Shown in pieces: positions 1-26,763 of a DNA stretch of 64,000 bases. The DNA lies in contig CANJIU010000007.1 of the NCBI GenBank assembly GCA_947474365.1, positions 62,001-126,000 on the forward strand, written 5' to 3'. The DNA comes from Opitutia bacterium (GTDB lineage Bacteria; Verrucomicrobiota; Verrucomicrobiia; Opitutales; Opitutaceae). The notes beneath the pieces are model-generated. The model made no database searches, had not been told where the DNA came from, and saw nothing but the letters and a program-made list of their open reading frames with translations. Within the stretch, counting starts at the first letter, position 1. Each line of letters opens with the position of its first letter. A program made the translations under genes and the position numbers.

Positions 1-2163
1 CTCGTCGGGCGTGGTTCCGGTGACGGGGTCGGCCTTGGAGTTGCGCAGCGAGCTGAGGTATTCGCCCATCATTGGGCTGAGAGTGACGTTTTCCAGCAGG
101 GTGCGGAAATTGCCAAAGGCGCCGGCGCCGAGGATGTCGTAGTAATTGGCGAGCGGCTCGGCGCGGTTGTCGTCACCCAGGGCGATGTCCGACGTGACCA
201 GGATCTGACTGAGGGCGAACGCGACGCGCTGGCGGAGCTGGTCGGGAGCGGTGAGGGCGATCTTGAACCACGCCGACTGGCGGTTGGGCATGTGGATCGC
301 GTTCCAGTTCGTGAAGCTGCTGCTGCCGCCGAAAGCCGTGCGGTCCGCAACGGTGGCGGTACGATGAGAGGTGAACGGCATCGCCAGCTGCGACGTGATC
401 CAGGCATCGATGTTTCCGCCGGTGAGGGCGTCGATTTCAGCCTTGGTCGGGCCGAAGGTTGCCTGGGTCAGGAAGCGAGCGGCGTCTGTGGCCGCGACAG
501 TGGCGAGAGACAGGGCGGGAGCCGCGGCCGGCGGAGCAAACGAACGCGATCCGGAACCCACGATGAACGTGCCCTTGACCTCTCCAGCGGGGAACTTGGC
601 GGTATCGATCCGGACGGAAATATTGCCAGACTTGAGCGCGTCGAGCAGCGCCGCACCCGAATACGGCCCAGTGGGTTCGAACGTCCACTGAGCGCCGATG
701 ACCTGGCCCTGCGGCAGGTTGAAAACATAATCCTCGCTGCTGCCGATCGTGAGGTGGGCCGTGATCTCGGCAGAGCTGAGATTGTTGAACGACACGTTAA
801 CGGACGCGATCGCCCCGGTGGAACTGAGGAGAATTGCAGCGGTGCCCGAGGCGGTGGATCCGCCACTCGCGGTCGTCGTGGGCCGCACGGTGGCGACGTA
901 GAGCGTGGCGCTGCTGTCGGAAATCCGCACCGTCGCGGACGATTCCGGGCCGGCGACGTAGAGCGTGCCCGGGACGACGGTGACGACCACGGTGTCGGTC
1001 CCTTCGTTCTGCAAGTCGGGGTTGGGGAGCAAGGGCAGCTTCACCGTCGTGGCGCCGGCGGGAAAGACGATCGTTCCGGGGAGAAAGGCGTAGTCGAAGC
1101 CATTCACGGCGGAACCGCCCACGCCGTACTGTACCGTGAGCGGATCGAGGGTAGAGCCGGTGCGGGTGAACGTATACTCACCGTTGTTTCCGCCGGTTTC
1201 GTCCGCCGTGGCCTTGGAGGCGGCGACGGTGACGAGGGCGGGCGAGGTCGGGGAGAGGTCGTAAACTTCCACGATCGCCACGCCGCTCGTGTTGGCGGCG
1301 CCGTTGACCTGGACGGAGTAATTTCCGGGGGCGAGATCGACGAGGAGGGCGGCGTCGTTGCTGCCGGCGGGGAAGGCGAAGGCGCCCGCCTGGGCGAAGG
1401 CGGCCGTGAGCGTCGCGGCGCTGGCGGCGTTGGTGCCCACCGGAGTGCCCCAATTGTCGTTGGTCGCTACGGTGGTCGCGGGAGTGCCGTTGCGCACGAG
1501 GCTGAGTGTAGGATTTGGCAACACGCCGGTGACGCCAAGTGCCGAGAGCGCGGGACCGGCGGCCCGAATGAGGAGTTTGCGCGTGCCGGAACCGGCGGTG
1601 ATGACGAAACCCGGGGTCAGCTGCCCTGCCGCTCCTCCCACTTGGGCGCGGGTGGAGAGGTTGAGAAATTTTCCGGGGGGAGCGCCAACTTCGTAGACCT
1701 CAACAATCGCGGTGCCGGTCGTGCCACCGACGCCGCTGACCTGGGCCGAGTAGGCGCCGGGCGGGAGGGTCGCGACGATGCCCGCGTCGCGTGAACCAGC
1801 CGTCAGCGCGAAGGCTCCGACCGAATTGAAGGCGGTGAGGTCGGCGGCGTTCCAGTTGTCGTTGGTGGCGACGACAGCGTTGGCGGAATTGTAGACCGTC
1901 AGCAGGGGATCGGCGAGAGTGCCCGTGACATTGAAGGGTGCGGTGGCGAGCCTGGGGCCGACGCCCCGGATGACGACCTGCTTGGGTGTTGTGCCACCGA
2001 TGAAGAATCCCGCCGTCAGCACGTCGGCACCGGTGCCGACGCGAGCGAGCGTCGAGACATTGGCCAGACGGGTCTCCTGGGCGAAGAGCGAGCAGGTGAG
2101 CGTGAGCGCGAGTGCGACCAGGACGGCAATCGGCTGCGGACGACGGTGACGCGGGTTTTTCAT
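1..2163 (-). CDS. DUF1800 domain protein, secreted, 3' end cut by window
   Basis: The reading frame is open from an ATG at 2163 to the window edge (721 codons), so the C-terminal part of DUF1800 is missing. The N-terminus (MKNPRHRRPQ, then a hydrophobic stretch ending SLFAQE) looks like a Sec signal peptide. Two copies of a roughly 120-residue beta-rich module follow, each with an IRxxGPxL...GTL(A/P)(D/N)P...NDNW pattern and ending in (V/I)EVY(E/D). Next come a Calx-beta-like domain (near TVQYGVGG), a CHRD-like domain, and the start of DUF1800 (DAARFLTQATFGP, LRQRVAFALSQI). Its partner DUF1501 gene would lie beyond position 1. DUF1800 has no established biochemical role; an extracellular or envelope location is inferred from the signal peptide and domain set. 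Confidence 0.9.
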   Translation of the reverse strand, partial: MKNPRHRRPQPIAVLVALALTLTCSLFAQETRLANVSTLARVGTGADVLTAGFFIGGTTPKQVVIRGVGPRLATAPFNVTGTLADPLLTVYNSANAVVATNDNWNAADLTAFNSVGAFALTAGSRDAGIVATLPPGAYSAQVSGVGGTTGTAIVEVYEVGAPPGKFLNLSTRAQVGGAAGQLTPGFVITAGSGTRKLLIRAAGPALSALGVTGVLPNPTLSLVRNGTPATTVATNDNWGTPVGTNAASAATLTAAFAQAGAFAFPAGSNDAALLVDLAPGNYSVQVNGAANTSGVAIVEVYDLSPTSPALVTVAASKATADETGGNNGEYTFTRTGSTLDPLTVQYGVGGSAVNGFDYAFLPGTIVFPAGATTVKLPLLPNPDLQNEGTDTVVVTVVPGTLYVAGPESSATVRISDSSATLYVATVRPTTTASGGSTASGTAAILLSSTGAIASVNVSFNNLSSAEITAHLTIGSSEDYVFNLPQGQVIGAQWTFEPTGPYSGAALLDALKSGNISVRIDTAKFPAGEVKGTFIVGSGSRSFAPPAAAPALSLATVAATDAARFLTQATFGPTKAEIDALTGGNIDAWITSQLAMPFTSHRTATVADRTAFGGSSSFTNWNAIHMPNRQSAWFKIALTAPDQLRQRVAFALSQILVTSDIALGDDNRAEPLANYYDILGAGAFGNFRTLLENVTLSPMMGEYLSSLRNSKADPVTGTTPDE

Positions 2164-2304
2164 GCGAAAAATTCTTTTCTGGGTGACCGGAAATTTTCCC
2201 TCAGGAGGGGGTAATTCCGATTTCGAAGCGGGCGAAAGCTAGGCGAGCGTCGCCGGGTTGTCGCGACAATTCTTTGCCGTAATTGTCCCCGCCTTGCGTC
2301 CGTA

Positions 2305-2326
2305 GGAGCCGGTTTCCAGCGGCTCC
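2305..2326. other. inverted repeat downstream of DUF1501 gene
   Basis: Seven-base arms ggagccg (2305-2311) and cggctcc (2320-2326) flank an 8-base loop, just past the stop of the DUF1501 gene that ends at 2342. No T-rich run follows on the minus strand, so it is a weak terminator candidate at best. Confidence 0.3.
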
Positions 2327-2341
2327 ACCATGGTCAGTCGT

Positions 2342-3781
2342 TTAGAGAAATCCTAGGTTCGGTTTCGCGAATCGGCCGATGTTCGGCAGCACGGTGGGCA
2401 GGTCGGTGGCGCTGACGCCAAACCACGTCGCGAGCGTCGCAGCGTACTCGTCGACGCTCGTCGTGGGGATCCAGCGGCCCTGCGAGACGTCGTCCGGTCC
2501 GCTGATCGTGAGCGTCGGCATTTTCCCGTAGATGTCACCACCCTTGACCGCCCCGCCCACGATGAAGTGGTGACTGCCCCAGCCGTGGTCGGAACCGTCG
2601 CCGTTGGAGCGGTACGTGCGGCCGAAGTCGGAGGCGGTGAACGTCGTCACCTGGTTGGCGAGGCCGAGTTCGGTGGTCGCATTGTAGAATGTGTTCACCG
2701 CCTGGCTGATTTGGCTGAGCAACGCCGCGTGGGTGCCGGTCGTCGGGGCAGTGTTGATTAGCTGAGCGGCATGGGTGTCCCATCCGCCGAGCTGCACGAA
2801 GAAGATCTGCCGCTTCAGGCCGAGCCCCGCGGCCGCGCCGATCAGACGTGCGACCATCTTCAGCTGGTTCGCGGCGGTCGTGGAGGGAAAGACGGTCGTC
2901 AGCGTCGGCGAGGTCGCGAGGGTGGTGTTGAGGAAATCCGCGTCGGTGATCGCGCTGCCCGAGATTCCGGCAAACGCCGTGTCAATCAGGCCGGACTGCC
3001 CGAGGGAAAAAATGTCTTTTTGCGCACGGTAGCGGACGCCGTCGAGCAACGTGGGGCTGGTCGTGCTGCCGGTAAACGTGATTGCGCCACTGGTGCTGAC
3101 GGCGTATTGGGAGACGTTGCCGCCGACCTGGAAATAATTGGTGCCGGCGAGACTGACCGACATCGAGATCTGGTTGCTCGTGTTGAAGGCGTTGACGAGG
3201 TCCGCGACCCGTCCGCCCCATCCCGTCGTGCTGGGCCGGTCCGGCACGCTGCTCTGCCACTGCACCTGCTGGTCGCTGTGCGAAAACAGCTGGCGCGGCA
3301 GTGGCACCGACGCCGACGTGTATTGGGCCTTCGTTGTGGGGTAAGCGAGCGTGCCGACGTTGGCGAGCAGCGCCATTTTCCCGGCGCTGAAGAGGCTGGA
3401 CAATTCGGGCACTGCTGCGTGCAGCGAAAAACTGCGGCCGTCCGAGGTCCTCGGAGAGAGCGGAAGCAGGCCGGTCTGCGGCAACGCGAGGTTGGCCCGC
3501 GCGGCGGCATAGGCTGCGTAGCCGGTGGTGTCGGACGGGATGATGAAATTATTGGCGTCGTTCCCGCCGTTCAGAAAGAGGCAGACGAGCGCCTTGTAAT
3601 CGGTGGGCAGGGCGGCGGCGGTGTTCGGAACACTGATGCCGCTGTCGGGATTGGCCACGGCACCCATCAGCCGGAGGCTGGCGAGCGACGAGAGGAGGCC
3701 GGTGGCGCCGACCGCGGCGCAGCAGGACGAGCCGAGGAAATCCCGGCGGGACAGTTCGGGGGCGGCGGTTTTTTTGTTCAT
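2342..3781 (-). CDS. DUF1501 domain protein, Tat-exported
   Basis: 479 residues. The N-terminus carries a twin-arginine-type motif (SRRDFLG at about residues 10-16) followed by a hydrophobic stretch, so Tat export is likely. The body fits the DUF1501 family, which is distantly related to the alkaline phosphatase/sulfatase fold: an N-terminal KALVCLFLNGGNDANN segment, a central HSDQQVQWQSS segment and a TFTASDFGRTY...HGWGSHH segment. The last residues (VLPNIGRFAKPNLGFL) are almost identical in the other DUF1501 proteins of the window. Its ATG overlaps the stop of the upstream DUF1800 gene by 4 bp (ATGA), which suggests translational coupling. The substrate is unknown. Confidence 0.9.
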   Translation of the reverse strand: MNKKTAAPELSRRDFLGSSCCAAVGATGLLSSLASLRLMGAVANPDSGISVPNTAAALPTDYKALVCLFLNGGNDANNFIIPSDTTGYAAYAAARANLALPQTGLLPLSPRTSDGRSFSLHAAVPELSSLFSAGKMALLANVGTLAYPTTKAQYTSASVPLPRQLFSHSDQQVQWQSSVPDRPSTTGWGGRVADLVNAFNTSNQISMSVSLAGTNYFQVGGNVSQYAVSTSGAITFTGSTTSPTLLDGVRYRAQKDIFSLGQSGLIDTAFAGISGSAITDADFLNTTLATSPTLTTVFPSTTAANQLKMVARLIGAAAGLGLKRQIFFVQLGGWDTHAAQLINTAPTTGTHAALLSQISQAVNTFYNATTELGLANQVTTFTASDFGRTYRSNGDGSDHGWGSHHFIVGGAVKGGDIYGKMPTLTISGPDDVSQGRWIPTTSVDEYAATLATWFGVSATDLPTVLPNIGRFAKPNLGFL

Positions 3782-6700
3782 TTTTGCGTCGCGCCGGCGG
3801 GCGAGGTGGCGACGAGCAGGACCGCGGTCCGCGCCCGATCGAGAGTGGAGGTGGAGGTGGGCACCGCCCCCAACGCGGTGACGATGCGGTCCCGGGTCGA
3901 CTGGGGCATGGTGCCGCCGGCCATCACGGTCGCAAGATGATCGACCAGCGCGGCGGGCGTCGGGACGAGCGTCTGCTCATAGGTCAAATCCAGCATCAGC
4001 GTCGCCTGCAGTGCGTTGGTCGTCGTGCCGCTCGTCGCCGTAATGAACGTGCGGAGGAAATTCGGGCCGTCGACGCTCGTCGTGGCGTCGGTGATTTGAA
4101 ACTCCGGCGCGACGAGTCCGGCGGCCGCGAGGGGGCCGGTTTCGACGTACGAGGGGCTGAAGAAGTTGAAAACCGTGGGCGAGCGCAATGCCGCCTCTGC
4201 GAGGCGCGTCTGCACGTTGGTGATATTGGTGCCAGTGCTGTTCGTCGAAATGACCGAGGTTCCGGCCGGGAGCGGCGTCGCGCTCGTGATGGGATTGCCA
4301 TCCACCGTCACCCGGAATCCGGCATAGCGCCCGTTGGGCGCCGAGGCGTTGAACGTGCGCAGCAGCCCGGTCAGGCGCAGCAGCGGTTCCTTGAGTTTGC
4401 CGTAGGTGAGGTTGGCGGCGACTGTGGTCGACCGCGCCTCATAATCGGTGTAGATGGCCCGGACGACTGCCCCCAGATCGCCGCGGACGCCGGAGCCGTT
4501 GTTTTCAAATACCTTTGCCACCCGGTAGACGTACGCGGGACTCGGGTTGCTCGTGATCAGCCGCTGGATGAGCTGCTTCACGATGAACGGTCCCGTGTTC
4601 GGGTGGTTGAAGAGCGTGTCGAGCAGGATGCGGAGATCGGTCGTTCCGCCCTGAGAGGCGGGAATGACCACGCCTCGCACGATGCTCTTCGCGGTATCGT
4701 CGTGATAGGCGGGGAAGAGTTGCATCGCGCTGAAGTAGTTGATCCCCGCTGTGCGAAAGGCGGTGAGGTTCGTCGACGGGTAGGCCCAGCCGGTGAAAAT
4801 CTTCGCCGTTTCGGTGATCTCCGTCTGGGTGTAGGTCGTGATCGGCAGCGCCGTGCTGTCGAGCTTGAGGGTGCCGTCTGGCTGCAGCTCGTTGAGCCCG
4901 ATGGTGAACAGCTGCATGATCTCGCGGGCGTAGTTTTCGTCTGGCGTGGTGCCGGCGACGGGGTCGGCCTTGGCGCTGCGGAGCGAACTGAGATAGAGGC
5001 CCATCATCGGGTTGAGGGTGACGTTTTCCAGCAGCGTCCGGAAGTTGCCGAAGGCACCGTTGCCGAGGATGTCGTAGTACGCGGCCAGTGGTTCGGCCTG
5101 GTTGTCGTTGCCCAGGCCCACGTCGGAAACCACCAGGATTTGGCTCAGCGCGAACGCGACGCGTTGACGCAGTTGATCGGCGGCCGTGACCGCTTGGGTA
5201 AACCACGCAACCTGGCGGTTGGGCGGATGAACGGCGTTCCAATTGGTGATACTCGAGCTGCCGCCGAAGGTTGTGCGATCGTTGGTCGTCGCGCTGCGGT
5301 GAGAGGAGAACGGCATCGCCAGCTGCGTGGTCAGCCAAGTATCGATGCTTTGCCCGGTGAGCGCGTCGATCTCTGATTTCTTCGGGCCAAACGTCGCCTG
5401 CATCAGGAAACGTGCGGCATCGGCGCGGGTGACGTTGGTGAGCGAGACCGCCGGTGGCGCCGCCGGCGGGGTGAACGTCTGGGAGCCGACCCCTTGGATA
5501 AACGTGCCCTTCAGCTCCCCGCCGGGATATTTCGAGGTGTCGATGCCGACGAAAATCTTTCCGGTCCGGAGTGCGTCGAGCAGGTCGGCGCTGGCATAGG
5601 GGCCGACGGGGTTGATATACCAAGGGGAGCCTGCGACCTGACCGTTGGGCACGGCGGTGACATAGTCGCCCGACGGGCTGAGGCGGAGATGCCCGCTCAC
5701 CTGCGCGGAACTCAGGTTGGAGAACGAGACGTTGATCCCGGCGAGCGTGCCGCTGGCGCTGAGCAGCAGCGTCGCGGTGCCCGACGCGATCGAGTCAACG
5801 GCTGCGCCTTCCGGCCGTAGGTTGGCGACGTAGAGGGTTGCGGCGCTGTCGGCGATCGTGGCGGTCGCACTCGCTTGCGCCCCCACCTCGTAGTCGGCGG
5901 TTCCCGGCGTGAGCGTGACCGTCACGGTGTCCAGGCCGTCGGCTGTCAGATCCGGAATGGGCGTGAGCGGAAGTTTCACGGCGGCGACGCCGGCGGGGAG
6001 GGTGAGGGTGCCGGGCAGCAGGTTGTAGTCGACGCCGTTCACGGCGGTGCCGCCGACGCCGTAGGAAACGGTCAGGGCGGTCTGGATGTCGCCCGTGCGC
6101 GTGATGGTGTATTCACCGGGGTTGGACCCGGACTCGTCGCTGGCCGCCTTGGTTGCGACGATGGTGACGGTGGTCAGCGGACTGGGGGCGAACCCGTCCT
6201 CGCCGGCCGCCCACACGTGATAGGCTCCTGTCCGCACGGTGCCGTTGCGGAAATTGTAGAGCTGGATGACGCGCGTCAGTTCGGTGAGGTCGATGCGGCC
6301 GTCGCGGTTCGAATCGGCCGAGTGGTAGCTGGTGAGCGTGATCTTAGCGATGGTGTTGAGGATGGAGGGTTCGCCTGCAAACCCGTCCTCGCTGCCCGGC
6401 TGCACCTTGTAGTAGCCCGTGCGGGTGCTGCCGTTGCGGGTGTTGTAGAGTTCGATCACGCGGGTGAGCTCCTGCAGGTTGAGGCGGAAATCGAGGTCCG
6501 TGTCGGCGCTGTGATTGGGTGCGGTTGCCGCGGCGACCGAAGTTGCCGCCGGCGCGTTGTCGGCCGCCACGGGCCGGGCCTGGGCCGCAGTGGGAGGTGT
6601 GGCGGAGGCAGGGGTGATATCGTAGATTTCGACGAGCGCGGTGCCGCCGGCGCCGGATTTGTCCCCCACCTGAACGTGGTAGTTTCCGGGCGGAAGGTCG

Positions 6701-7413
6701 ACGAGCAGGGCGGCGTCGTTGCCTGGTTCGGGAAAGGCAAAGGCGCCCGCCCGCGCGAACGCGCCCTTCAATGTATCGGCGCCGGCCGCACGGGCATTTG
6801 CGGGGGTCGCCCAATTGTCGTTCGTCGCCAGTTCGGTACCGGTGGTCGCGTCGCTCACCCGCAGGACGGGATCGGGCAGGGGGCCGGCGACTCCGAATGC
6901 GGCCAGGGCGGGCCCGGCGGCGCGGATGAGCAGCTGGCGGGGGCGCGTGCCGGAGGAAATCGTCAGGCTGACCTCGGATTCGATGCCCGGGGCGAGCCGC
7001 AGGCGGGCCGAGGTGTTCAGCAGGCGGGCGCCGGTCGGACTGAGTTCGTTGATTTCGAGGCGCACCGGACCGGTGTGATCCGAGGTGCGGACAAGATAAC
7101 CTCCGGTGGTCAGGGTGGCGACGAGCGCATCGGGCGCGCCGGCGGAACCGTCGTTGGCGGCGATGATGCCGTGGGTACGGTCGAAGAGGGTGAAGGAGGG
7201 CCGGGGGGCCGGACTCGTTGGGCTGCCGGTCGGGACGGTAAGGAACGATTGAATCGAAATCGGTTGGTCAGGGCCGGGGCCGAGGACAAAGCCAACCGCG
7301 AGTTCGTCTCCGGCGGCGCCGGTCCCGGTGTTAATCCGGGACAGACGGGACTCCTGCGCGGGGAGGGCGAGAACGCTGAGCAGACAGCACACGGCCAGGT
7401 GGAGTCGGGTCAT
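3778..7413 (-). CDS. DUF1800 domain protein with dockerin/EF-hand-like repeats, Calx-beta and CHRD domains
   Basis: 1211 residues from the ATG at 7413, chosen because MTRLHLAVCCLLSVLALPAQ is a clear signal peptide; the frame is open further upstream, but that extension looks non-coding. Order: a degenerate copy of the beta module (GDELAVGFVLGPG), one clear copy (RQLLIRAAGPAL...TNDNW), two EF-hand/dockerin-like repeats of about 55 residues (HSADTDLDFRLNLQELTRVI and HSADSNRDGRIDLTELTRVI, near 6180-6530), Calx-beta, CHRD (LYVANLRPEG...GGELKGTF), then DUF1800. The acidic DxDxD-type loops suggest calcium binding. The stop overlaps the start of the following DUF1501 gene (ATGA). It is probably secreted; function is unknown. 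Confidence 0.9.
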   Translation of the reverse strand: MTRLHLAVCCLLSVLALPAQESRLSRINTGTGAAGDELAVGFVLGPGPDQPISIQSFLTVPTGSPTSPAPRPSFTLFDRTHGIIAANDGSAGAPDALVATLTTGGYLVRTSDHTGPVRLEINELSPTGARLLNTSARLRLAPGIESEVSLTISSGTRPRQLLIRAAGPALAAFGVAGPLPDPVLRVSDATTGTELATNDNWATPANARAAGADTLKGAFARAGAFAFPEPGNDAALLVDLPPGNYHVQVGDKSGAGGTALVEIYDITPASATPPTAAQARPVAADNAPAATSVAAATAPNHSADTDLDFRLNLQELTRVIELYNTRNGSTRTGYYKVQPGSEDGFAGEPSILNTIAKITLTSYHSADSNRDGRIDLTELTRVIQLYNFRNGTVRTGAYHVWAAGEDGFAPSPLTTVTIVATKAASDESGSNPGEYTITRTGDIQTALTVSYGVGGTAVNGVDYNLLPGTLTLPAGVAAVKLPLTPIPDLTADGLDTVTVTLTPGTADYEVGAQASATATIADSAATLYVANLRPEGAAVDSIASGTATLLLSASGTLAGINVSFSNLSSAQVSGHLRLSPSGDYVTAVPNGQVAGSPWYINPVGPYASADLLDALRTGKIFVGIDTSKYPGGELKGTFIQGVGSQTFTPPAAPPAVSLTNVTRADAARFLMQATFGPKKSEIDALTGQSIDTWLTTQLAMPFSSHRSATTNDRTTFGGSSSITNWNAVHPPNRQVAWFTQAVTAADQLRQRVAFALSQILVVSDVGLGNDNQAEPLAAYYDILGNGAFGNFRTLLENVTLNPMMGLYLSSLRSAKADPVAGTTPDENYAREIMQLFTIGLNELQPDGTLKLDSTALPITTYTQTEITETAKIFTGWAYPSTNLTAFRTAGINYFSAMQLFPAYHDDTAKSIVRGVVIPASQGGTTDLRILLDTLFNHPNTGPFIVKQLIQRLITSNPSPAYVYRVAKVFENNGSGVRGDLGAVVRAIYTDYEARSTTVAANLTYGKLKEPLLRLTGLLRTFNASAPNGRYAGFRVTVDGNPITSATPLPAGTSVISTNSTGTNITNVQTRLAEAALRSPTVFNFFSPSYVETGPLAAAGLVAPEFQITDATTSVDGPNFLRTFITATSGTTTNALQATLMLDLTYEQTLVPTPAALVDHLATVMAGGTMPQSTRDRIVTALGAVPTSTSTLDRARTAVLLVATSPAGATQK

Positions 7414-7624
7414 GCGGCAGTGGGGTTCGGGTGAATCACGGTGGGAACGGTCGCGGAGCATGCACGAAATCCGGGAATTCGGGAGGAGAAAAATGCGCAA
7501 CGGGAAACGAAGGGGCATCTCAGCCGGAAAACTCGGTCGGGGCGTCGCCTTTGTCGGCGCCGCTTCCGTGGTTTCAGCAACTAGATTTGACTTCGATCGC
7601 CTTTTTTCGCGCTTAGTCGCACCC

Positions 7625-9820
7625 ATGATTACATCCTCAGATATGTCCGGCACCCTTCTCGGATGGCGCGCCGTGTCGCGGGCAGCCGCAATCATCCTCG
7701 CGCTCGCTTCAATCTCGATCGGTTTCGCCCAATCGCGCATGACCGGGTTTACCCTGCGCGTCGCGGTCCCGGCATCCGGGATCACCTCCACATTCACCAT
7801 CGCCGGAACGGTGCCAAAAGCCGTTCTGATCCGCGCCCTCGGGCCGGCCCTCGCGGGTTTCGGCGTAGCCGGCACTCTCGCCGACCCCCAGATTGTCGTC
7901 ACGAACAGCACGGGAGCCACTGTCGCTTCCAACGACAACTGGAACGGCGATGCCGCCGTCGTCGCGGCCACCGGTCGCCTGGGAAGCTTTCCGATTACCA
8001 ATACCGGCAGCCGCGATGCCGCCCTGGTGGCGACATTGCCCCCAGGAACCTATGCGGCAACGTTCACAGGGGTCGGCGCAACGACCGGCCTGGTGTTGAT
8101 TGAAGTCAACGATGCGGACATCGTCTCGGGAAGCAGTTCAGTTTTTTCGTTTCTCGCCCTGCGGGGCCTGGTCGGCGGGAGCGCCGGGCCGTTGGTGTTC
8201 GGGATCAACACATCCGGAAATCTCGCCGTGATGATCCGCGCGCTCGGGCCGACGTTGACATCACTCGGTGTCGCCGGCGCCCTGGCCGATCCCACGCTGA
8301 CGGTCACGGCCGGATCCGCCGCGTTCACCAACAATAATTGGGGTGGAGACGCTTCGCTCGCCGCCGCTGCCGCCCAAGTCGGGGCAACGCCACTGCCGGC
8401 CAACAGCCTCGACAGCGCGCTTTTTGCCGCCGTGGGTGTTGCCGGGGTGACCGCGACCGTCACCGGAGTGGGCAACACCACCGGCATTGCACAGGTGGAG
8501 TTTTATTCCGTCACCGGTGTTTCGATTGCCCCGCTGATTACTTCCACTCCCCGCGACACCGCGCTGGTGACGGGCTCGCGGCTTACGCTTACGGCCGCGG
8601 CGACGGGCGTGCCGGCCCCAACGTATCAGTGGCAGAAGAACGGGGTCGCGATCGCCGGAGCCACGGCGGCGACCTATACCGTCGCTGCCGCGCAGGTCGC
8701 GGATACGGGAACTTACACCTTCGTCGCAACCAGCACGGCCGGCACCGCGACGTCGACCCCGGCGGTGGTTTCCGTCGGGGCGCTGGCCGCACCGACCGTG
8801 GTGCAGGCCCCGACATCCCAGACTGTCACCGCGGGGGCGTCGCTCACCCTGACCGCAACCGTGACAGCCTTCCCGGGGCCGACGTATCAGTGGCAGAAGG
8901 ACGGCGTGGCGGTTCCCGGCGCGACCAATGCGACGTTGACCATCGCCTCCGTTCAGGCCGTCAACGCCGGCACGTACACGCTCACGGCCACCAATTCGCA
9001 GGGGACGGTCACGTCGGCCGGGGCGGTGATTGCCGTGGAGCCGTCCTCGAAGCTCTCCAACCTTTCGGTGCGGACCTCGATGGCCGACGGCCAGAGCCTC
9101 GCCGTCGGGATGGTGGTGAGTGGCGGACCGCGCAGCGTGCTCGTCCGCGCCGCCGGTCCGGCCCTCGTGCCCTTGGGTTTCCAGGCGAACTCCGTGGTGG
9201 CCAATCCGCGGATGGCGCTGTTCAACGCACAGTCGGTGCAAATCCTCGCGAACGATGACTGGGACCCGCGCCTCGCTCCGAGCTTTGCGCAGGTGGCCGC
9301 CTTTCCCTTCCCGGCGGGCAGCCGCGATGCGGCGGTGGTCCAGAATCTGGACGGACAGGTCTCGGTGCAGATCACCGCCAGCGGCGCCGGAACGTTGCTC
9401 GCCGAAGCCTACGACCTTGAGACGGGCAACTCGCTCCGCCTGGTGAATCTCTCGGTCCTGAATCGCGTCGGAACCGGCAACGACGTCCTCATCGCCGGTT
9501 TCAATCTCTCGGGCACCGGGACGAAGCGATTGCTGATCCGCGGCGTCGGACCCTCACTGACGCAGCTGGGTGTCACTGGCGTGCTGGCCGATCCGCAGAT
9601 CCAAATCATGAATTCCAGCAACGCCCAGGTCGGATCGAGCGACAACTGGGACGCGGCCCTGGCGCCCGTGATGGCATCGGTCGGAGCTTTTCCGCTACTC
9701 GCGGGGAGCCGCGATTCGGCGCTGGTAGTCACCCTGGGGGTGGGAACCTACTCGGCGATCATGAGCGGCGTCGCCGGTGGCACCGGGATGGGAATCATCG
9801 AGGTCTACGAGTTGCCCTGA
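7625..9820 (+). CDS. secreted protein with four beta modules and two Ig-like domains
   Basis: 731 residues from the ATG at 7625; an ATG at 7643 (MSGTLLGW) is equally possible. Both give a hydrophobic export signal ending near SIGFAQS. Two copies of the IRALGPxL...LADP...NDNW/NNNW module (about residues 40-165 and 175-297) come first. Two Ig-like domains follow (about 305-388 and 392-473), each with a YQWQKNGVA/YQWQKDGVA core and a DTGTY or NAGTY motif. Two more modules close the protein (476-598 and 600-731). No catalytic residues are recognisable. It is transcribed divergently from the DUF1800 gene at 3778-7413 and shares the module with its neighbours, so a structural or binding role outside the cell is the best guess. 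Confidence 0.85.
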   Translation: MITSSDMSGTLLGWRAVSRAAAIILALASISIGFAQSRMTGFTLRVAVPASGITSTFTIAGTVPKAVLIRALGPALAGFGVAGTLADPQIVVTNSTGATVASNDNWNGDAAVVAATGRLGSFPITNTGSRDAALVATLPPGTYAATFTGVGATTGLVLIEVNDADIVSGSSSVFSFLALRGLVGGSAGPLVFGINTSGNLAVMIRALGPTLTSLGVAGALADPTLTVTAGSAAFTNNNWGGDASLAAAAAQVGATPLPANSLDSALFAAVGVAGVTATVTGVGNTTGIAQVEFYSVTGVSIAPLITSTPRDTALVTGSRLTLTAAATGVPAPTYQWQKNGVAIAGATAATYTVAAAQVADTGTYTFVATSTAGTATSTPAVVSVGALAAPTVVQAPTSQTVTAGASLTLTATVTAFPGPTYQWQKDGVAVPGATNATLTIASVQAVNAGTYTLTATNSQGTVTSAGAVIAVEPSSKLSNLSVRTSMADGQSLAVGMVVSGGPRSVLVRAAGPALVPLGFQANSVVANPRMALFNAQSVQILANDDWDPRLAPSFAQVAAFPFPAGSRDAAVVQNLDGQVSVQITASGAGTLLAEAYDLETGNSLRLVNLSVLNRVGTGNDVLIAGFNLSGTGTKRLLIRGVGPSLTQLGVTGVLADPQIQIMNSSNAQVGSSDNWDAALAPVMASVGAFPLLAGSRDSALVVTLGVGTYSAIMSGVAGGTGMGIIEVYELP

Positions 9821-9900
9821 TTCCGGGGAGAACGGCGGTCGCGTGTTTTCGGGGTGGCGTTTCGTTTGGCGCGCCCGGCAAATGCCGGGCGACAACTCCC

Positions 9901-10062: not shown

Positions 10063-10305
10063 GCGGCAGTGGGGTTCGGATGAAGCACGATGAAAACGAA
10101 CGCGGGGCATGCACGAACTCCGGGAACTCGGGAGGCGAAAAATGGGCCAATGGGAATCGGTGGCGGCGCGGCGGTGAGAATTTGGAGTGAGCGTCGCCTT
10201 CGTCTGCGCCCTTCCTCCTCGCCGGCCGCGTGAAAAACCTCGCCACCGGAGAATCTCGTTTGGAGGCCGGGCTGTTCCCGGTCCCACCCACCTTTGTTTC
10301 CGACC

Positions 10306-17153: not shown

Positions 17154-18560
17154 TCACTCGCCTCCGCCCATGAACCCCAGATTCGGTTTCGTAAAACGCC
17201 CGATGTTGGGGAGGACGACAGGCAAGTTCGCCGCGCTGACGCCGAACCACGTGGCGAGCGTGGCGCTGTATTCATCCACACTGGTGCTCGGAATCCAGCG
17301 ACCGCGGCCCGTGTCGTCCTCGGCGCCGACGGTGAGCGAGGGCATTTTGCCGTAGATGTCGCCGCCCTGTACGGCGCCACCCATGATGAGTTGGTGGTTG
17401 CCCCAGCCGTGGTCGGTGCCGCCGGCATTCGGAATGTAAGTACGGCCGAAGTCGGACGCGGTGAAGGTGGTCACTTGGTTGGCTACGCCGAGTTCGACGG
17501 TGGCGTCGTAGAAGGCCTTTATCGCCCCACTGAGTTGGCCAAGGAGCGGGCCGTGACCAGTGACCTGTGCGGCGTGAAGATCCCAGCCGCCAAGTTCGAC
17601 GAAGAAAATCTGACGCTTGAGGCCAAGTGTCGGGGCGACCGAGATAAGCTTGGCCACCATGGCCAGTTGCCCGGCGAGGTCATTGCCGGGAAAAACAGTT
17701 TTCAACGCAGGCGCGGTTTGCAGGACGCCGCGCAACGTTTCGCTGTCGCTCCAGGCATCCTGGGTGATGCCACCGAAGGCAGCTTCGAGGAGATTGGCGG
17801 GCGAATTGGCGAGGACGTTGCGGAGCGCGGTGTCACGCGGGCGGTAGTTGGTCGCGGTTCCGGCCAAATACATGACGGGAGCGCCAAAGGTGCCCACCGT
17901 GTACGGCGCGACGGTCGTGCCGCGCTGAAAGGAGTTCGAGCCTGCGAGGGAAATTGCCAGCGAAATGTCGTTGCTGGAGTTGAGCGCGGCCACCAGGTCG
18001 CCGAGACGGCCACCCCAGCCGGTCTCGAACGGTTTGTCGGGAACGCCGCTCTGCCATTGGAGCTGCTGGTCGCTGTGCGAGAAGAGCTGCGGCGGGAGAT
18101 TTTTTCCGGCGTTGTAGTCGGCGAGCGTAGTGGGGCGGACGAGCGTGCCGACATTGGCGAGGACGGCGAGTTTGCCCTGCGCGAAGAGGTCGCGCAGCGC
18201 CGGCATCGAGGGGTGCAGCGCCCACGAGCGTCCGTCGGCGTAGCGGCGCGGGGTGATGGGCAACAGGCTCGATTGCGAGACGGCGAGTTCCGCGCGGGAC
18301 TTGGCGTAGGCGGCGTAACTCGTGGCGTCGCTGGGGATGATGAGATTGGTGGCGTCGTTGCCGCCATTGAGGAAGAGGCAGACGAGCGCCTTGTAGTCGG
18401 GCGGTAGCGCGGCAGCGCGGGCGCGGGCGAGATTATTGCCGGCCACGGCGCCGATGACGCGGAGTTGGGCGAGCGTGGAGAGGATGCCGGTGGTGCCGAC
18501 GGCCGCGCAGCACTGGCCAAGAAAGTGGCGACGGGAGAATTCAGGGGCGGACGGATTCAT
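17154..18560 (-). CDS. DUF1501 domain protein, Tat-exported
   Basis: 468 residues. FSRRHFLGQCCAAVG near the N-terminus is a twin-arginine-type signal. Family landmarks are KALVCLFLNGGNDATN, FSHSDQQLQWQSG, TFTASDFGRTY, HGWGNHQLIMGG and the C-terminal VLPNIGRFTKPNLGFM. It follows the frameshifted DUF1800 gene with a 7-bp gap. The DUF1501 frame itself is intact, which argues that the pair has not been abandoned for long, or that the neighbour's frameshift is recent or an assembly error. Confidence 0.9.
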   Translation of the reverse strand: MNPSAPEFSRRHFLGQCCAAVGTTGILSTLAQLRVIGAVAGNNLARARAAALPPDYKALVCLFLNGGNDATNLIIPSDATSYAAYAKSRAELAVSQSSLLPITPRRYADGRSWALHPSMPALRDLFAQGKLAVLANVGTLVRPTTLADYNAGKNLPPQLFSHSDQQLQWQSGVPDKPFETGWGGRLGDLVAALNSSNDISLAISLAGSNSFQRGTTVAPYTVGTFGAPVMYLAGTATNYRPRDTALRNVLANSPANLLEAAFGGITQDAWSDSETLRGVLQTAPALKTVFPGNDLAGQLAMVAKLISVAPTLGLKRQIFFVELGGWDLHAAQVTGHGPLLGQLSGAIKAFYDATVELGVANQVTTFTASDFGRTYIPNAGGTDHGWGNHQLIMGGAVQGGDIYGKMPSLTVGAEDDTGRGRWIPSTSVDEYSATLATWFGVSAANLPVVLPNIGRFTKPNLGFMGGGE

Positions 18561-18567
18561 CGGCGGA

Positions 18568-21500
18568 TTATTTTTGGGTAGCGCCGGCGGGAGAAACGAC
18601 CGTCAGGTGAATGGCATGCTGGACGCGCTCCTGATCGCTCGTCGCGGGATCGAACGACTGCAGCGCCGTCACGATCTGGTTCCGCGTGTAGGTGCCCATC
18701 TGACCACCACAGAAAATCAAATTCAATTGGTCGGCCAGTGCGGTGGGGTTTCGCGCGTTGGGGAGGAAGGGAGCATAGTCCAGCACGAGGAACGGGGAAG
18801 GTCCGCTCGGAGGCGCGGGCAGCGGGTAGGGACGATAGATGAATTCGACGAACGTGTTCGGGATCGAGATCGAGTAGTTGCCGTCGGTGATTTCAAGTTC
18901 CGGCGAGACGAGCCCGGCGGCGGCCATCGGTCCGGGCGGTGAATAGGTGGGGGAGAAAAAGTTGAACACCGAACGGGCGAACAGCGGCTGCTGGCCCGTC
19001 TGGTTCATCGGATAAGACATGAAGCCAGACGGAACATAGCCGCCAGGCGAACGCGGATCCGTATAATAACTGTCCATGAACCGGCCATTGGGTGCGCTGG
19101 CATTGAGGGCGCGGAAGAAAGCGCTGAAGCGCAGGAGCGGCTCCTTGATCTTTCCATAGCCGATGTTGTTCAACACGGCTGGTGACCGGGCCTCGTAGTC
19201 GGTGAGGATGGCGCGCACCACCGCGCCGAGGTTGCCGCGCACGCCGGTGCCGTCGTCGGCGAATTTTTGGGCAACACGATAGACATAGCCCGGGCTCGGG
19301 TTGCTCGTGACGAGCGCCTTGATCAAGTGGCGGCTGATGAACGGGCCGGTGTTCGGGTGGTTGAAGAGCGTGTCGAGCGCGGTCTTCAAATCCTGCGGGC
19401 CGGTCTGGCCGGCGGAGATAATTGTCGGCTGGGCGTCGAGCGGGGCCTTCTGCTGGAGACTCACGATGCTCTTCGCCGTCTTGTCGTGAAATGCGTCGTA
19501 ATAACGCATGGGCTGGAACCAGGAGGAGCTGTCGTAGGCGAGCTCCTTGTCTGGATCCCGGTAACCCCGGCTGGTGAATTGTGCGACGTCGGTCAGCGAG
19601 GCGGGGAAGTCGGCCCATTGCCATCCGGTAAGGACCTTCGCCATTTCGGAGACCATGGCCTGATTGTAGGTCGGAATGGGCAGCCCGGTGGCGTCGAGCA
19701 TCAACGTGCCGTCGGGCTGGAGTTGCACGAGGCCGATGGTGAAGAGCTGCATTACCTCCCGCGCGTAGTTTTCGTCGGGCGCGGTGCCAGTGACGGGATT
19801 GGCTTTCTGGTTGGCGCGATGGCTGAGCCACTCGCCCATCACTGGACTGAGCGTGACGTCGTCGAGGAGTTGGCGGAAATTACCAAAGGCGCCCGAGACG
19901 AGATAATCGTAGTAACGGACCTTCGCCTTGACCGGGATGGAACTGATTGCCCACCACCAGCAGTTCGCTGAGCGCAAACGCAACGCGCTGCCGCAATTGA
20001 TCCGGCCCGGTCAGGACCATCTTCCACCACGAGGCATGCCAGACCCAATGATCGTAATAGAAGTAGTCCAGGTTGTCAGTGCGCGGCGGGTTGGGGTAGG
20101 TCGTGACGTCGTAGTTGATCGAAGCGACGGCCGAGGTCGCGGGCAGCGCAAGTTGGTCGTCGAGCCAGCCGTTGATGCCGCGAGACTGGAGCGCGGCGAT
20201 CGTCGCGGATGTGGGCCCGAACGTGGCTTGGATAAGGAAACGCGTGGCGTCCGTCTGCGACGGAGATGTGAGGGCGCCGGTCGGCAGCGCGGGCGGCGCC
20301 GCCGGCGCGATGAAATTAGCCGAACCGCGTGTCGGCAGCAGCGCTGAGCGCAGCTCGCCGGCGGGAGCATTCGCCGTGTCGATCTGCACCGAAATGTCAC
20401 CGTTGCGCAGCGCGTCGATGAGGGCGCTGGACGAGTAAGGTCCACTGGCCGCAAAATTCCAGAGAACGCCGCTGACCTGACCGCGGGGCAGGTTGAGCAC
20501 AAAGGTGCCCGTGCTGCCGCTGGTGGCTCCGAGCACGAGGTGCGCGCCGGACTGGGTCGAGGAGAGATTGGAAAATGAGACGCTGACCGATGCCGTGTTG
20601 GTGCTCGCATCGAAGAGGACCGTGGCATAACCCGACGCCGTGGAGCCGGCGGAACTCGGGGCATTGCTGGCGGGTCGCAGGCTCGCCAGGTAGAGCGTGA
20701 CGGGGTTGTCGATGATCGAGACGGTGCCGCTGATCGCGGTGCCCAGCGTATAGCCGGTGCCCTCGGTCAGGGTGAGCGTCACCGTTTCGGTCGGCTCGAC
20801 CGCAATGTCGGCGAGCGGTTGCAGTGGAATCGCCACGTTGGTCGCGCCCGCGGGAATCGTGGCGGTGCCGGGCAGCGTGGAATAGTCGACGCCGTTCGTG
20901 GCGGTGCCGCTGATACCATAGTTGACCGTGAGGGGATTGAACGTGTCGCCACTCCGGGTGATCGTGAACTCGCCGGCCGACGGGCCGCTCTCGTTGGCAG
21001 TGGGCTTGGTGGCGGTGAGCGTGACGTTCACGGGTACGCTCGGCGACAAGTCGTAGACCTCGACGAGCGCGACGCCGGTGGTGTTGCCGACGCCGCTGAC
21101 CTGGAGGGTGTAGCTGCCGGCGCCGAGGTTGATGAGCAGCGCGGCGTCGCGGCTGCCGGCGGTCAGGGCAAACGCGCCGTTGTCCGCGAAGGCGGCGGCG
21201 AGCGTGGCGGCGTCCACCGCGGCCGGTCCGACGGGTGTGCCCCAATTGTCGTTCTCGGCAATCTTTGTGGTGTCGGAGTAGAGTTCGAGCTTGGGGTCGG
21301 CGAGCGTGCCGGGAACGCCAAAGCTTCCGAGCGTGGGTCCGACTGCACGCAGCAGGAGGCGGCGGGTCCCGGTGCCGGCGGAGATCGTGATGCCTGGGAT
21401 AAGGATGTTTGCTCCGGTGCCGACCTGCGCGCGGGTCGAGAGGTTGACGAGGCGCGTTGTGCCACCGGTGACCTCATAGACTTCGACGAGCGCGACCCCG

Positions 21501-21922
21501 CTTCCGCCAATGCCCGTGACCTGCGCGGTATAGCTTCCGGGGGCGAGCGAGGTGACGATCGCGGCGTCCTTCGCGCCGGCGCCGAGGGCAAACGCGCCGA
21601 CGGACGCGAAGGTCGGGGCATCGGTTGCATTCCAATTGTCGTTCTCAGCGATCTTGGTCGCGCCGGAGTAGAGTTCCAGCTTTGGATCGGCGAGCACCCC
21701 GGAGACGCCGAACGCACCGAGCGTCGGTCCCACGGCGCGGACGAGCACCTGCTTGTTTGGGCCGGGCCCGATCGTGAAACCGGTGATCAAGGTGTCGGTG
21801 CCGCCGGCGGACGTGCGCACGGAGACGTTGGAGAGCCGGGTGTCCTGCGCCCCGGACTTCAAGGCGCAGACGCACGCCAGAGCGAGGATGACGCGGTGGA
21901 GACCTTGCAGCGGAAGTAGCAT
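18568..21922 (-). pseudogene. DUF1800 domain protein gene with a frameshift
   Basis: Two overlapping minus-strand frames together encode one full-length DUF1800 protein. The first (ATG at 21922, MLLPLQGLHRVILALACVCA signal peptide) holds two beta modules, Calx-beta (TVNYGISGTATNG), CHRD and the start of DUF1800. It runs through RVAFALSELLVVGNQFHPG and then leaves the family pattern. The family pattern resumes in the other frame at about VKAKVRYYDYLVSGAFGNFRQLL and continues to the stop at 18568. The switch lies near 19930-19945 and needs one base skipped. No homopolymer or classical slippery site is obvious there. A real mutation or a sequencing error are both possible. Confidence 0.8.
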
Positions 21923-22042
21923 CGAGGGATGAACCGTACCAAGTGCGCCGAGCAGGAACGCGACCGGGAAAAAATCAACCGGATATAGGTATCCCGCTAT
22001 GGGGGAACGCGTCCCCGGCCGTCGGTCTGCTTGCGGCCGCGC

Positions 22043-23479
<1,437 letters not shown>

Positions 23480-23520
23480 CTCGAGGTGGGTCGGTGCGTT
23501 GAGGATGGTCGGGGTGGTGT

Positions 23521-26500
23521 TCAGCGCTGGACGGAGCCGTCGGGGCAGGTGGCGACGAAGTAGACGGCGTGGCGAACGCGATCGAGGGCCAGCGTGGCTG
23601 CCGGCAGCGCGCCGAGGGCGGTGGTGATGCGCGCCTTGGTGGCGGCGGACATCTGGTTGGCGCACAGGATCGTGCTCAAGCGGTCGAGCAGGGCCGAGGG
23701 GTTGCCGGCGAGCGCGACCTCGGCCGAAAGATCGAGGGCGTAGGTGGTGTTGAAATTCCGCGCGATTGGCGCGATGGGACTGATCGTGTAGTTGTAGAAC
23801 AGGTTGGGCACGGTGATCGACGACGTGGCGTCGGTGATCTGGAATTCGGGTGCGACGAGGCCCGCGGCGGCGAGCGGTCCGGGGAAGACGTAACCGGGTT
23901 CAAAGAAGTTGAAGACCGACGGAGCCTGCTGGGCCGCCTGGAACAGTCCGCCAGCGATCCCCTCAAGCGTGTTGCGACCGGAGGGCGAGGTGGCGTTGAA
24001 GCCGCGGAGCAACGCCGTGAAGCGCAGCAGCGGTTCCTTGAGCTTGCCGTAGCCCGGTGCGGCGGCGGGGGCGGCGGCGCGGGCCTCGTAGTCGGTGAGA
24101 ATCGCGCGCACAACGGCGCCCAGATCGCCCCGGACGCCGGAGCCGTTATCGACAAATTTCTGGGCCACCCGGTAGACGTAAGCCGGGCTCGGGTTGTCAG
24201 TGACGAGTCGCTGGATGAGTTGGCGGCAGACGAAGGGAGGCGTGTTCGTGTGATTGAAGAGCGCGTCGAGGAGCCGCTTGAGATCCTCGACGCCGCCGAG
24301 GTTGGCGGGGATCACCGTGCCGGCCGGGCCCGTGCTGCCGACGATGGTCTTTTGCGACGGCTCGTGAAACGCCGCGTACATCGTCATCGGGTTGAGGTAG
24401 TCCTGTCGTGCCGTGCGGAAATTCGCCGCAGTGGGGAACGGATTGGAGAAACCCCAGCCGGTGAGAACCTTCGCGGTCTCGGTGATCGTGGTCTGGTTGT
24501 AGGTGGGAATCGGCAGGCCCTGGGCGTCGAGCTTGAGCGTGCCGTCGGGCTGCAACTGCACGAGGCCGATGGTGAACAGCTGCATGACCTCGCGGGCGTA
24601 ATTTTCATCGGGACTGGTGCCGGCCGCGGCGTCGGCCCGGGCGTTGCGGAGGTGGCTGAGATAGGTGCCCATCACCGGACTCAGCGTCACCTGTTCGAGC
24701 AGGGTGCGGTAGTTGCCGAAGGCCGCGTTGGCGAGGGTGTCCCAGTAGACCGAGACACCTTCGTTGAGCGCGTTGGCGAGCGTCGTGTCGGAGACGACCA
24801 GGATCTGGCTGAGCGCGAAGGCCACGCGCTGGCGGAGCTGGTCCGGGCCGGCGAGGGCGACGGGAAACCAGCCGCGACGCCGAAAGGCCGGAAAATATTG
24901 GATGTCGTTCGGGTCGATCCCGATGACATTGGATTCGGCCTTGGTGGCGTTCCACTCCGCGAGGCCGGAGGCCCGGTGCGAGGTGGCGGGGAGTGCCATC
25001 TGCTGCGTGATCCAGGTGTCGATCGAACTGCCGGTGAGGGCGTCGATTTCGGATTTTTTGGGACCAAAGGTCGTCTGGGTGAGGAAGCGTGCGGCGTCGG
25101 TGGCGGAGACGTTGGCGAGTGAAACAGCGGGCGCGGCGGACGGCGCGGTGAACGTCTGCGAACCGATGGCGGAGAGGAACGCCCCGCGCACTTCGCCGGC
25201 GGGATAATTGCTGCTGTCGAGCCCAACGTAGATCAGGCCGTTGCGAAGCGCGTCGAGGATTTGCGTGCTCGTGTAGGTGGCGGTCGGTGCGATGTCCCAT
25301 TGCACGCCACTCACCTGGCCGAGAGGCAGGTTCAATACGTAGTCGCCGGCGGAGGTGCTGTTGCCGAGAAAGAGATGGGCGCCAGCCTGGCCCGAGCTCA
25401 GGTTTGAAAATGAGACGTTGACCGTCGCGACGGTCCCACTCGCGCTCAGCACGATCGTCGCGAGTCCGCTGGCGGCGGAGCCGGGGGCGTTGCTGGCGGG
25501 CCGCAGGGTCGCCACGTAGAGCGTGCCGGGGTTGTCGGCGATCGAAACGGTGCCCGAAATTGCGTTCCCCAGCACGTACCCGGTGCCCTCCGTCAGGGTG
25601 AGCGTCACGGTTTCGGTCGGCTCGACCGAGGTGTCGGCGAGCGGCTGCAACGGGATCGCCACGCTGGTCGCTCCGGCGGGAATGGTCGCAGTGCCGAGCA
25701 GCGCGGGATAATCGACGCCGTTCGTGGCGGACCCGCTGACGCCGTAGTTGACCGTGAGCGGATTGAACGTGTCGCCGCTCCGGGTAATCGTGAACTCGCC
25801 GGCCGAAGTGCCGTTCTCGCTGGCGGTTGGTTTGGTGGCGGCAAGGGTGACGCTCGCGGGCCCGGTTGGGCTGAGGTCGTAGACTTCGACCAGTGCGACG
25901 CCGCTCGTGTTGCCTACGCCGCTGACTTGGATGGTATAATTGCCTGGGGCGAAATCCGCGAGGACAGCAGCGTCGCGGCTGCCCGTGGCGAAGGCGAATG
26001 CCCCCGCCTGGGTAAACGCAGCGGTAAGCGCGGCTGCGGTGGCGGCGCCGGTGCCGACCGGGGTGCCCCAATTGTCGTTGGTCGCGACGGTGGCGTTGTT
26101 GGCGCCGAGCACGGTCATCGTCGGATCGGCGAGGGTGCCGCCGACTCCGAGGGCGCCGAGGCCGGGGCCGGCCGCGCGGATCAGCAGGCGGCGGGTGCCG
26201 TTGCCAGGCGATATGACGAGGCCGGGAATCAGGATGTTGCCGCCGGTGCCGACGAGGGCCCGCGTGGAAATGTTCGTCAACCGTGCACCGACGGCTCCGA
26301 CCTCATAGACCTCGATGAGGGAGACTCCAGTCGTGCCGCCGGCCCCGGAAACTTGGGCGGTGTAGCCCCCAGGGGCGAGGGTGGCGAGCAGCGCGGCATC
26401 GCGGGAGCCCGCCGTCAGGCCAAAGGCGCCGACCGAATTGAACGTGGCGGTGGTGACGGGTGCGGCGGAGCCAACGGGCGTGCCCCAATTGTCGTTCGTG

Positions 26501-26763
26501 GCGACGACGGCGCCGGCGCTGTTGAAGAGGGTCAGTACGGGGTCGGCCAGCGATCCAGTCACGCCGAACCCCGTGAGTGCCGGACCCGTGGCGCGGATCA
26601 GCACGGTCTTGTTTGAGCCGGTGCCGATCGTCAGGCCGGTGATGATGATGTCGCCGCCGGTGCCGACCTGCGCGCGGGTAGAGAGATTGGAGACGCTCGG
26701 TGTCTGGGCGAGCAGGGTGCTGGCGGCGGCCAGACAAAGACATGCGAGGCGCAGCGATTTCAT
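23521..26763 (-). CDS. DUF1800 domain protein with two beta modules, Calx-beta and CHRD domains
   Basis: 1080 residues. MKSLRLACLCLAAASTLLAQ is a signal peptide. Two beta modules (VLIRATGPAL...TNDNWG and LLIRAAGPGL...TNDNWG), a Calx-beta-like domain (TVNYGVSGSATNG), a CHRD-like domain (LYVATLRPAS...AGEVRGAF) and the DUF1800 region (ATDAARFLTQTTFGP, LRQRVAFALSQI, DENYAREVMQLFTIGL) follow. The Calx-beta part closely resembles that of the frameshifted gene at 18568-21922, so these two are probably recent paralogues. It is the promoter-proximal member of the array. Confidence 0.9.
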   Translation of the reverse strand: MKSLRLACLCLAAASTLLAQTPSVSNLSTRAQVGTGGDIIITGLTIGTGSNKTVLIRATGPALTGFGVTGSLADPVLTLFNSAGAVVATNDNWGTPVGSAAPVTTATFNSVGAFGLTAGSRDAALLATLAPGGYTAQVSGAGGTTGVSLIEVYEVGAVGARLTNISTRALVGTGGNILIPGLVISPGNGTRRLLIRAAGPGLGALGVGGTLADPTMTVLGANNATVATNDNWGTPVGTGAATAAALTAAFTQAGAFAFATGSRDAAVLADFAPGNYTIQVSGVGNTSGVALVEVYDLSPTGPASVTLAATKPTASENGTSAGEFTITRSGDTFNPLTVNYGVSGSATNGVDYPALLGTATIPAGATSVAIPLQPLADTSVEPTETVTLTLTEGTGYVLGNAISGTVSIADNPGTLYVATLRPASNAPGSAASGLATIVLSASGTVATVNVSFSNLSSGQAGAHLFLGNSTSAGDYVLNLPLGQVSGVQWDIAPTATYTSTQILDALRNGLIYVGLDSSNYPAGEVRGAFLSAIGSQTFTAPSAAPAVSLANVSATDAARFLTQTTFGPKKSEIDALTGSSIDTWITQQMALPATSHRASGLAEWNATKAESNVIGIDPNDIQYFPAFRRRGWFPVALAGPDQLRQRVAFALSQILVVSDTTLANALNEGVSVYWDTLANAAFGNYRTLLEQVTLSPVMGTYLSHLRNARADAAAGTSPDENYAREVMQLFTIGLVQLQPDGTLKLDAQGLPIPTYNQTTITETAKVLTGWGFSNPFPTAANFRTARQDYLNPMTMYAAFHEPSQKTIVGSTGPAGTVIPANLGGVEDLKRLLDALFNHTNTPPFVCRQLIQRLVTDNPSPAYVYRVAQKFVDNGSGVRGDLGAVVRAILTDYEARAAAPAAAPGYGKLKEPLLRFTALLRGFNATSPSGRNTLEGIAGGLFQAAQQAPSVFNFFEPGYVFPGPLAAAGLVAPEFQITDATSSITVPNLFYNYTISPIAPIARNFNTTYALDLSAEVALAGNPSALLDRLSTILCANQMSAATKARITTALGALPAATLALDRVRHAVYFVATCPDGSVQR

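Follow-up and report, generated by a model that had tools for sequence, protein, structure and literature searches.

Five tandem DUF1800-DUF1501 gene pairs in an Opitutia bacterium and their possible link to type II secretion

DUF1501 (PF07394) and DUF1800 (PF08811) are widespread exported protein families of unassigned function. A chitin-synthase-linked operon of the two families, with a twin-arginine translocation (Tat) motif on DUF1501 and a tandem of two pairs in Agrobacterium vitis, has been reported (PMC5122149). DUF1501 modules have also been linked to bacteria of the Planctomycetes-Verrucomicrobia-Chlamydiae (PVC) group with intracellular membranes (PMC4452313), and PSCyt/PSD proteins adjoin unknown families in freshwater Verrucomicrobia (PMC5615132). 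In the PSCyt-PSD1 (DUF1549/DUF1553) + DUF1501 pairs of Planctomycetes/Verrucomicrobia (PMC5615132), as in the locus described here, the gene for a large exported protein is followed by DUF1501. This locus lies on contig C7 (CANJIU010000007.1) of a draft Opitutia assembly (GCA_947474365.1; 10.35 Mb, 275 contigs, 97.6% complete, 7.4% contamination); the whole analyzed stretch of 64,000 nucleotides (C7:62001–126000) is hereafter called the window. An array of five DUF1800→DUF1501 pairs extends over C7:59.2–88.8 kb, on the minus strand and in a single orientation. The array shares with the chitin-synthase-linked operon the same two families, the same operon pairing, and the Tat motif on DUF1501 (PMC5122149). 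It differs in that five pairs follow one another, DUF1800 has N-terminal modules, no adjoining chitin synthase was found, and a third gene (T) occurs together with type II secretion genes at related loci. The literature searched, which omits most subscription journals, mentions DUF1800 in only four papers and DUF1501 together with type II secretion in none. The pair itself is known; the array, the third gene, and the secretion link look new.

With moderate confidence, evenly poised between right and wrong, we read the array as five old paralogous two-gene operons encoding exported two-part units that are handled by type II secretion via T. Both Pfam families score above their cut-offs (E-values of 1e-25 to 2e-86 for DUF1800 domains, cut ones included, and 8e-36 to 1e-28 for DUF1501), and DUF1501 is directly downstream of DUF1800, as in the described operon. 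The original prediction listed four complete pairs and the start of a fifth DUF1800 gene. These pairs are real, but pair 4 has a frameshift in its DUF1800 gene, and the fifth pair is completed to the left of the window with its own DUF1501 (Table 1). The pair 4 DUF1800 domain spans two frames with a switch near 19.9–20.0 kb, and the frame of the partner DUF1501 stays open; the gene is either a pseudogene or the product of an assembly error. The close spacing described earlier (4-bp overlap to 42 bp) is borne out, with distances of -4, +42, +7, and +41 bp in the window when measured with signal-peptide starts. The long open reading frames (ORFs) at 3778-8001 and 22043-23665 begin too early, and their signal-peptide starts are at 7413 and 23479, respectively. 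Among the interruptions claimed, the two plus-strand genes (Ig-domain and TIR-TPR) are present, but no DUF1800/DUF1501 relic was found in the gap at 7.2–12.55 kb.

The two partners co-diversify. Patristic distances of DUF1800 and DUF1501 are correlated over 85 pairs from many phyla (Mantel r = 0.86) and over the 12 paralogous pairs within this genome (r = 0.95; r = 0.87 for 10 own pairs, after removal of a divergent copy on contig C2 and the frameshifted one). In each comparison, none of 2000 partner permutations reached the observed r. Because the 12 pairs are paralogues of one genome, their correlation cannot be explained by species history. The original prediction had made co-diversification its check and a conserved partner order one of its claims, and both hold: the order is kept for 13 of the 14 DUF1800 genes of this genome and, in wider locus samples, at nearly every locus with room for both genes. 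Besides the five copies in the array, two of the 14 genes stand in tandem on contig C68. We take the array to be more than a chance grouping: DUF1800 is present in 121 of 150 genomes of the same family, with a maximum of seven outside this genome among the matches listed. Tandem doublets occur elsewhere too, in G054 of the same genus and at locus L103, where a T gene lies between the pairs.

The pairing also appears to be specific. This genome has 73 DUF1501 matches, 51 PSD1 genes, and about 20 HXXSHH genes, and DUF1501 is found downstream of 47 of the 51 PSD1 genes, which form the larger pair system. Those DUF1501 proteins that accompany DUF1800 group in a single clan (support 1.0), from which the sampled PSD1-partnered ones are separate. 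Since the clans are split by partner, no swap between the DUF1800 and PSD1 systems has occurred here, and the interchangeable DUF1501 partners that the original prediction named as a contrary outcome are not seen in this genome. The array differs from the PSCyt-PSD1 systems in this separate clan and in the lack of detectable PSD1 homology in DUF1800 (hhalign <1%). Distant homology between DUF1800 and PSD1 was looked for by sequence and not detected, with no profile match and an hhalign probability of 0.3%. A common logic of these parallel sets, each with a large exported partner and a Tat-type protein, is possible.

For the origin of the array, pairs 1, 2, and 5 form one clade, and pairs 3 and 4 fall in a second clade together with loci on contigs C101 and C218. 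The closest relative of each of the five members is found in another organism and not in the array, indicating that the array is an assembly of old paralogues and not a recent burst. The earlier view of one repeatedly duplicated run thus gives way to two old clades that are interleaved. Domain exchange between neighbors is established for one member, the mosaic DUF1800 gene of pair 4. Its N-terminal doublet is 74–86% identical to those of C101/C218; its Calx-beta domain, which is absent from C101, C218, and pair 3, is 84–88% identical to that of the neighboring pair 5; and its later CHRD domain and DUF1800 start are 63–76% identical to pair 3. This pattern supports cassette exchange between neighboring copies. 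The N-terminal regions had been regarded as variable, yet their divergence is just slightly above that of the DUF1800 domains (41–67% vs 50–68% identity).

Both products carry export signals, in agreement with the proposed secreted two-part system. A twin-arginine motif precedes 81 of 84 DUF1501 domains. Among the 91 DUF1800 proteins, 86 have a hydrophobic N-terminal segment and 12 a twin-arginine motif. These general secretory (Sec) and Tat signals were judged by motif and hydrophobicity and not by a dedicated predictor.

The function of either domain had been described as unknown, which is now narrowed for DUF1501. An AlphaFold2 model built from a 72-sequence alignment (pair 4 query; predicted local distance difference test score, pLDDT, of 93) was placed by Foldseek and VIA in the alkaline phosphatase (AP) superfamily, with best Z-scores of 19.6 to nucleotide pyrophosphatase/phosphodiesterase (NPP) family phosphodiesterases and 17.6 to choline sulfatase. 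The similarity to NPPs and sulfatases covers the predicted fold (Z 17–20 over about 250 residues, with a root-mean-square deviation, rmsd, of 3.1–3.6 for most) and a conserved set of Asp, His, and Ser residues. In contrast, sequence identity is only about 9–13%, and DUF1501 lacks the Cys-type sulfatase motif. Residues D26, N29, S118, H119, D284, H286, S326, R330, D340, and H341 are invariant in the 72 sequences, and position 327 is D or E; the invariant D/H/S residues are candidate catalytic or metal-ligand-type residues by conservation. Given the AP-superfamily fold and these candidate residues, the modeled DUF1501 is likely a hydrolase of phosphate or sulfate esters. A classical sulfatase (S1) was rejected, as the Cys form of [C/S]-x-P-x-R is absent and the S-x-P-x-R matches in three of the 72 sequences are attributable to chance. 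PDB sequence profiles gave nothing convincing for DUF1501.

DUF1800 is without a convincing match. Its domain of about 525 aa is mostly helical in the model (pLDDT 94.5). PDB sequence profiles gave nothing convincing, and structure comparison by Foldseek and VIA returned no match with E <= 0.001; the best Z-score (3.5, to RsaA) is taken as noise. The lack of a structural match does not establish that the fold is new. The beta module adjoining DUF1800 is Pfam CHRD, and the N-terminal beta modules belong to an unnamed type of about 135 aa without Pfam or NCBIfam matches. In Opitutae, nearly all DUF1800 proteins have a doublet of this module, often a Calx-beta domain, and then CHRD (29 of 31 long proteins scanned). 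Of the architectural variation noted earlier, the missing Calx-beta in pair 3 is real, as is the difference in pair 2, which has a dockerin/EF-hand-like insert and one N-terminal module in reduced form. Otherwise, the N-terminal beta modules are mostly conserved as the doublet. Across the remaining phyla that were sampled, the DUF1800 protein is mostly shorter, and some have varied lectin-, Ig-, TSP3-, or PKD-type additions.

The third gene emerged from clustering of neighboring ORFs, a first pass placing it immediately after DUF1501 at 26 loci; in Verrucomicrobiota, the pair usually has it next in line. Its product has a single hydrophobic segment at the N-terminus, then a proline-rich linker and a domain of about 110 aa ending in DRWGTPFxFH…IRSAGPDrxxxTxDD. 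This end of the protein is similar to the GspG C-terminal domain (hhalign probability 69%, E 4.5e-5; hmmsearch cross-matches are weak, E ~1e-3). Among 35 strong T matches in 15 genomes, 30 are directly behind DUF1501 or DUF1800; of the remaining five, two are cut by contig ends, one follows a pair at a distance of about 4.5 kb, and no pair accompanies the other two. T follows the pair at five paralogous loci of this genome, and the array has a single copy, behind pair 1. T is also found in Verrucomicrobiota outside Opitutae (Prosthecobacter- and Brevifollis-like loci). At two loci, L218 (G140:C19) and L222 (G123:C349), T is directly behind DUF1800 with no DUF1501 between, and judging from this gene order, the association of T may be with DUF1800 and not with DUF1501.

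The link to type II secretion comes from 12 genomes including this one (contig C68), in which GspG-H-I-J-K genes, plus GspL where the contig allows, come after T at one locus per genome. One of these loci is cut by a contig end after GspI, and L096 and G129:C213, whose contigs are equally long, are counted once. On C68, a GspM-like gene comes after GspL; G, H, K, and M were assigned by Pfam, I and J by N_methyl matches and order, and L by weak PilN matches. The DUF1800-DUF1501-T loci at C68 and relatives resemble a type II secretion system in their GspG, GspH, N_methyl, GspK, PilN/GspL-like, and GspM-like genes. Only two T2SSG genes are present in this genome, one of them at the C68 locus. The chance that one of two GspG genes lies within 1 kb behind a pair is about 0.3% (arithmetic from 14 pairs and 10.35 Mb), with the repeats in other genomes not yet counted.

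The type II pathway takes substrates exported by either Sec or Tat, which suits a Sec carrier with a Tat enzyme. The DUF1800 protein, with its beta-rich N-terminal modules ahead of the helical domain, would cross the inner membrane by Sec, and the DUF1501 protein, as a putative AP-superfamily metallohydrolase, by Tat. In the periplasm, the two would form one unit, and the N-terminal cassettes may be exchangeable between neighboring copies. In Verrucomicrobiota, the pair is usually the front of a larger DUF1800-DUF1501-T set, with T as a single-span membrane protein that has a GspG-like domain. T and the pseudopilus would then pass both proteins, or the assembled pair, to the cell surface. There, DUF1501 may hydrolyze phosphate or sulfate ester bonds, perhaps those of a polysaccharide, and the DUF1800 modules may hold the substrate by polymer or matrix binding. 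A stronger version, which is tentative and on balance doubtful, sees in DUF1800-DUF1501-T a type II secretion branch of its own in Verrucomicrobiota. T, membrane-anchored and GspG-like without being a pseudopilin, would couple the Sec carrier, with its exchangeable N-terminal cassettes, and the Tat AP-fold enzyme to the pseudopilus, and arrays like the present one would supply alternative pairs to one machine.

Several observations weigh against the involvement of type II secretion. The GspG likeness of T consists of one profile comparison and weak cross-matches, with nothing convincing in Pfam (no T2SSG match) or in PDB profiles. A prepilin-type signal (prepilin peptidase cleavage motif) is found in none of 17 T sequences, so T is no ordinary pseudopilin. 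In further contrast to a canonical system, contig C68 has no secretin (six are located elsewhere in the genome), and the array itself has T alone of these genes, outside the window. The model is weakest in two respects: Gsp genes are missing next to most pairs, this array included, and T is missing in other phyla, being absent from the proteobacterial and Bacteroidota pair loci examined. The absence of T there also favors a rival explanation, which we consider rather unlikely, that the pair amounts to an exported hydrolase plus a carrier, the T/type II link is mere conserved gene order in one family, and the array is an ordinary gene-family expansion in a very large genome. Consistent with it, all genomes with a Gsp cluster behind the pair are Opitutae-like, and DUF1501 is massively expanded with PSD1 partners too in this 10.3 Mb genome. 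However, T recurs behind the pair in deeply diverged non-Opitutae Verrucomicrobiota and at paralogous loci, and rarely elsewhere.

Two further explanations concern what the pair does. The co-transfer of the pair with chitin synthase and sugar epimerase genes in plant-associated enterobacteria and A. vitis (PMC5122149) suggests that it may act on envelope or exopolysaccharide material of the producing cell, such as by modifying an exported polymer, rather than on outside substrates; the AP-superfamily fold relatives likewise include LtaS and phosphoethanolamine transferases. Nevertheless, polymer-synthesis genes are absent beside the pair in the scanned stretches of this genome and among its recurrent neighbors, and we regard this explanation as unlikely. 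Less probable still is a purely structural role, in which the AP fold of DUF1501 would have no activity and the pair would form a surface layer or an assembly at the pseudopilus tip. The operon position ahead of the pseudopilins would suit such a role, and the sole DUF1800 match with Z >2 is the Caulobacter S-layer protein RsaA, although with Z 3.5 and rmsd 7.9 this is at noise level. The metal-ligand-type residues of DUF1501, invariant in 72 sequences from several phyla, would be unusual for a scaffold. Under the reading of paired exported units handled by type II secretion, the questions raised are the export route of the pair, hydrolysis of phosphate or sulfate esters by DUF1501, and the role of T as a connector to the pseudopilus. 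The predicted catalytic fold, the confident but unmatched fold, the strict co-evolving pairing, and the conserved third gene make the function experimentally approachable.

Table 1. Genes of the array and its gap. Coordinates are window positions unless given with the prefix C7.
Feature	Position	Strand
Pair 1 DUF1800, N-terminal part: signal peptide, module doublet, Calx-beta-like region, CHRD, start of DUF1800	1..2163, on leftward beyond window to C7:60825	-
Pair 1 DUF1501	C7:59240-60703, left of window	
Pair 1 third gene T	C7:58562-59203, left of window, downstream end of array	
Pair 2 DUF1501: twin-arginine signal, AP-superfamily fold (predicted); 4-bp overlap with DUF1800 stop	2342..3781	-
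Pair 2 DUF1800: module, EF-hand/dockerin-like repeats, Calx-beta, CHRD, DUF1800; start MTRLHLAVCC	3778..7413	-
Ig-domain gene in gap; open frame, exact start uncertain, overlaps pair 2 start	7253..9820	+
TIR-TPR protein gene in gap between pairs 2 and 3; unrelated passenger or neighbor	10294..12378	+
Pair 3 DUF1501	12556..13938	-
Pair 3 DUF1800: module doublet, CHRD, without Calx-beta	13981..16995	-
Pair 4 DUF1501, intact; structure-model query	17154..18560	-
Pair 4 DUF1800, frameshifted, domain mosaic; ORFs 19880-21922 and 18568-19983	18568..21922	-
Pair 5 DUF1501	22043..23479	-
Pair 5 DUF1800: module doublet, Calx-beta, CHRD, DUF1800; DUF1800 domain is structure-model query	23521..26763	-

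In other phyla, the neighbors of the pair are lineage-specific and were not used as evidence. At six Woeseiaceae-type loci (L115, L126, L135, L147, L161, and L165), the pair is accompanied by a conserved extracytoplasmic function (ECF) sigma factor, a small membrane protein, a Spy/metal-resistance-like protein, and a phage-tail-sheath-like gene. The sigma factor, tail-sheath-like, and DUF885 genes of Woeseiaceae-type loci were set aside, as were Bacteroidota F5/8 or PA14 proteins with type IX secretion system (T9SS) tails and conjugation genes near the pair in Caulobacterales.

The module of about 135 aa is not restricted to DUF1800 proteins. It has at least 150 matches in this genome, usually as a doublet, and is found in 38 of 61 genomes searched, often in dozens of copies. 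Sorting of the module-doublet proteins by DUF1800/DUF1501 was considered and rejected, as many copies occur in genomes without a DUF1800 match (29 in G032 and 18 in G003), and G006 of the same genus has 63 copies with DUF1800 only of a short, divergent type. In DUF1800 proteins, the module is N-terminal, unlike in other carriers. In 22 of 24 further ORFs whose 3' end is closed, the final copy stops no more than 30 residues short of the C-terminus (nearly always 1–3 residues), and from this placement the module may possibly be a new sorting signal or C-terminal anchoring domain. The Ig-domain gene in the gap has four copies, the last at the C-terminus, and a plus-strand gene at 51732-54335 in the window likewise has the module.

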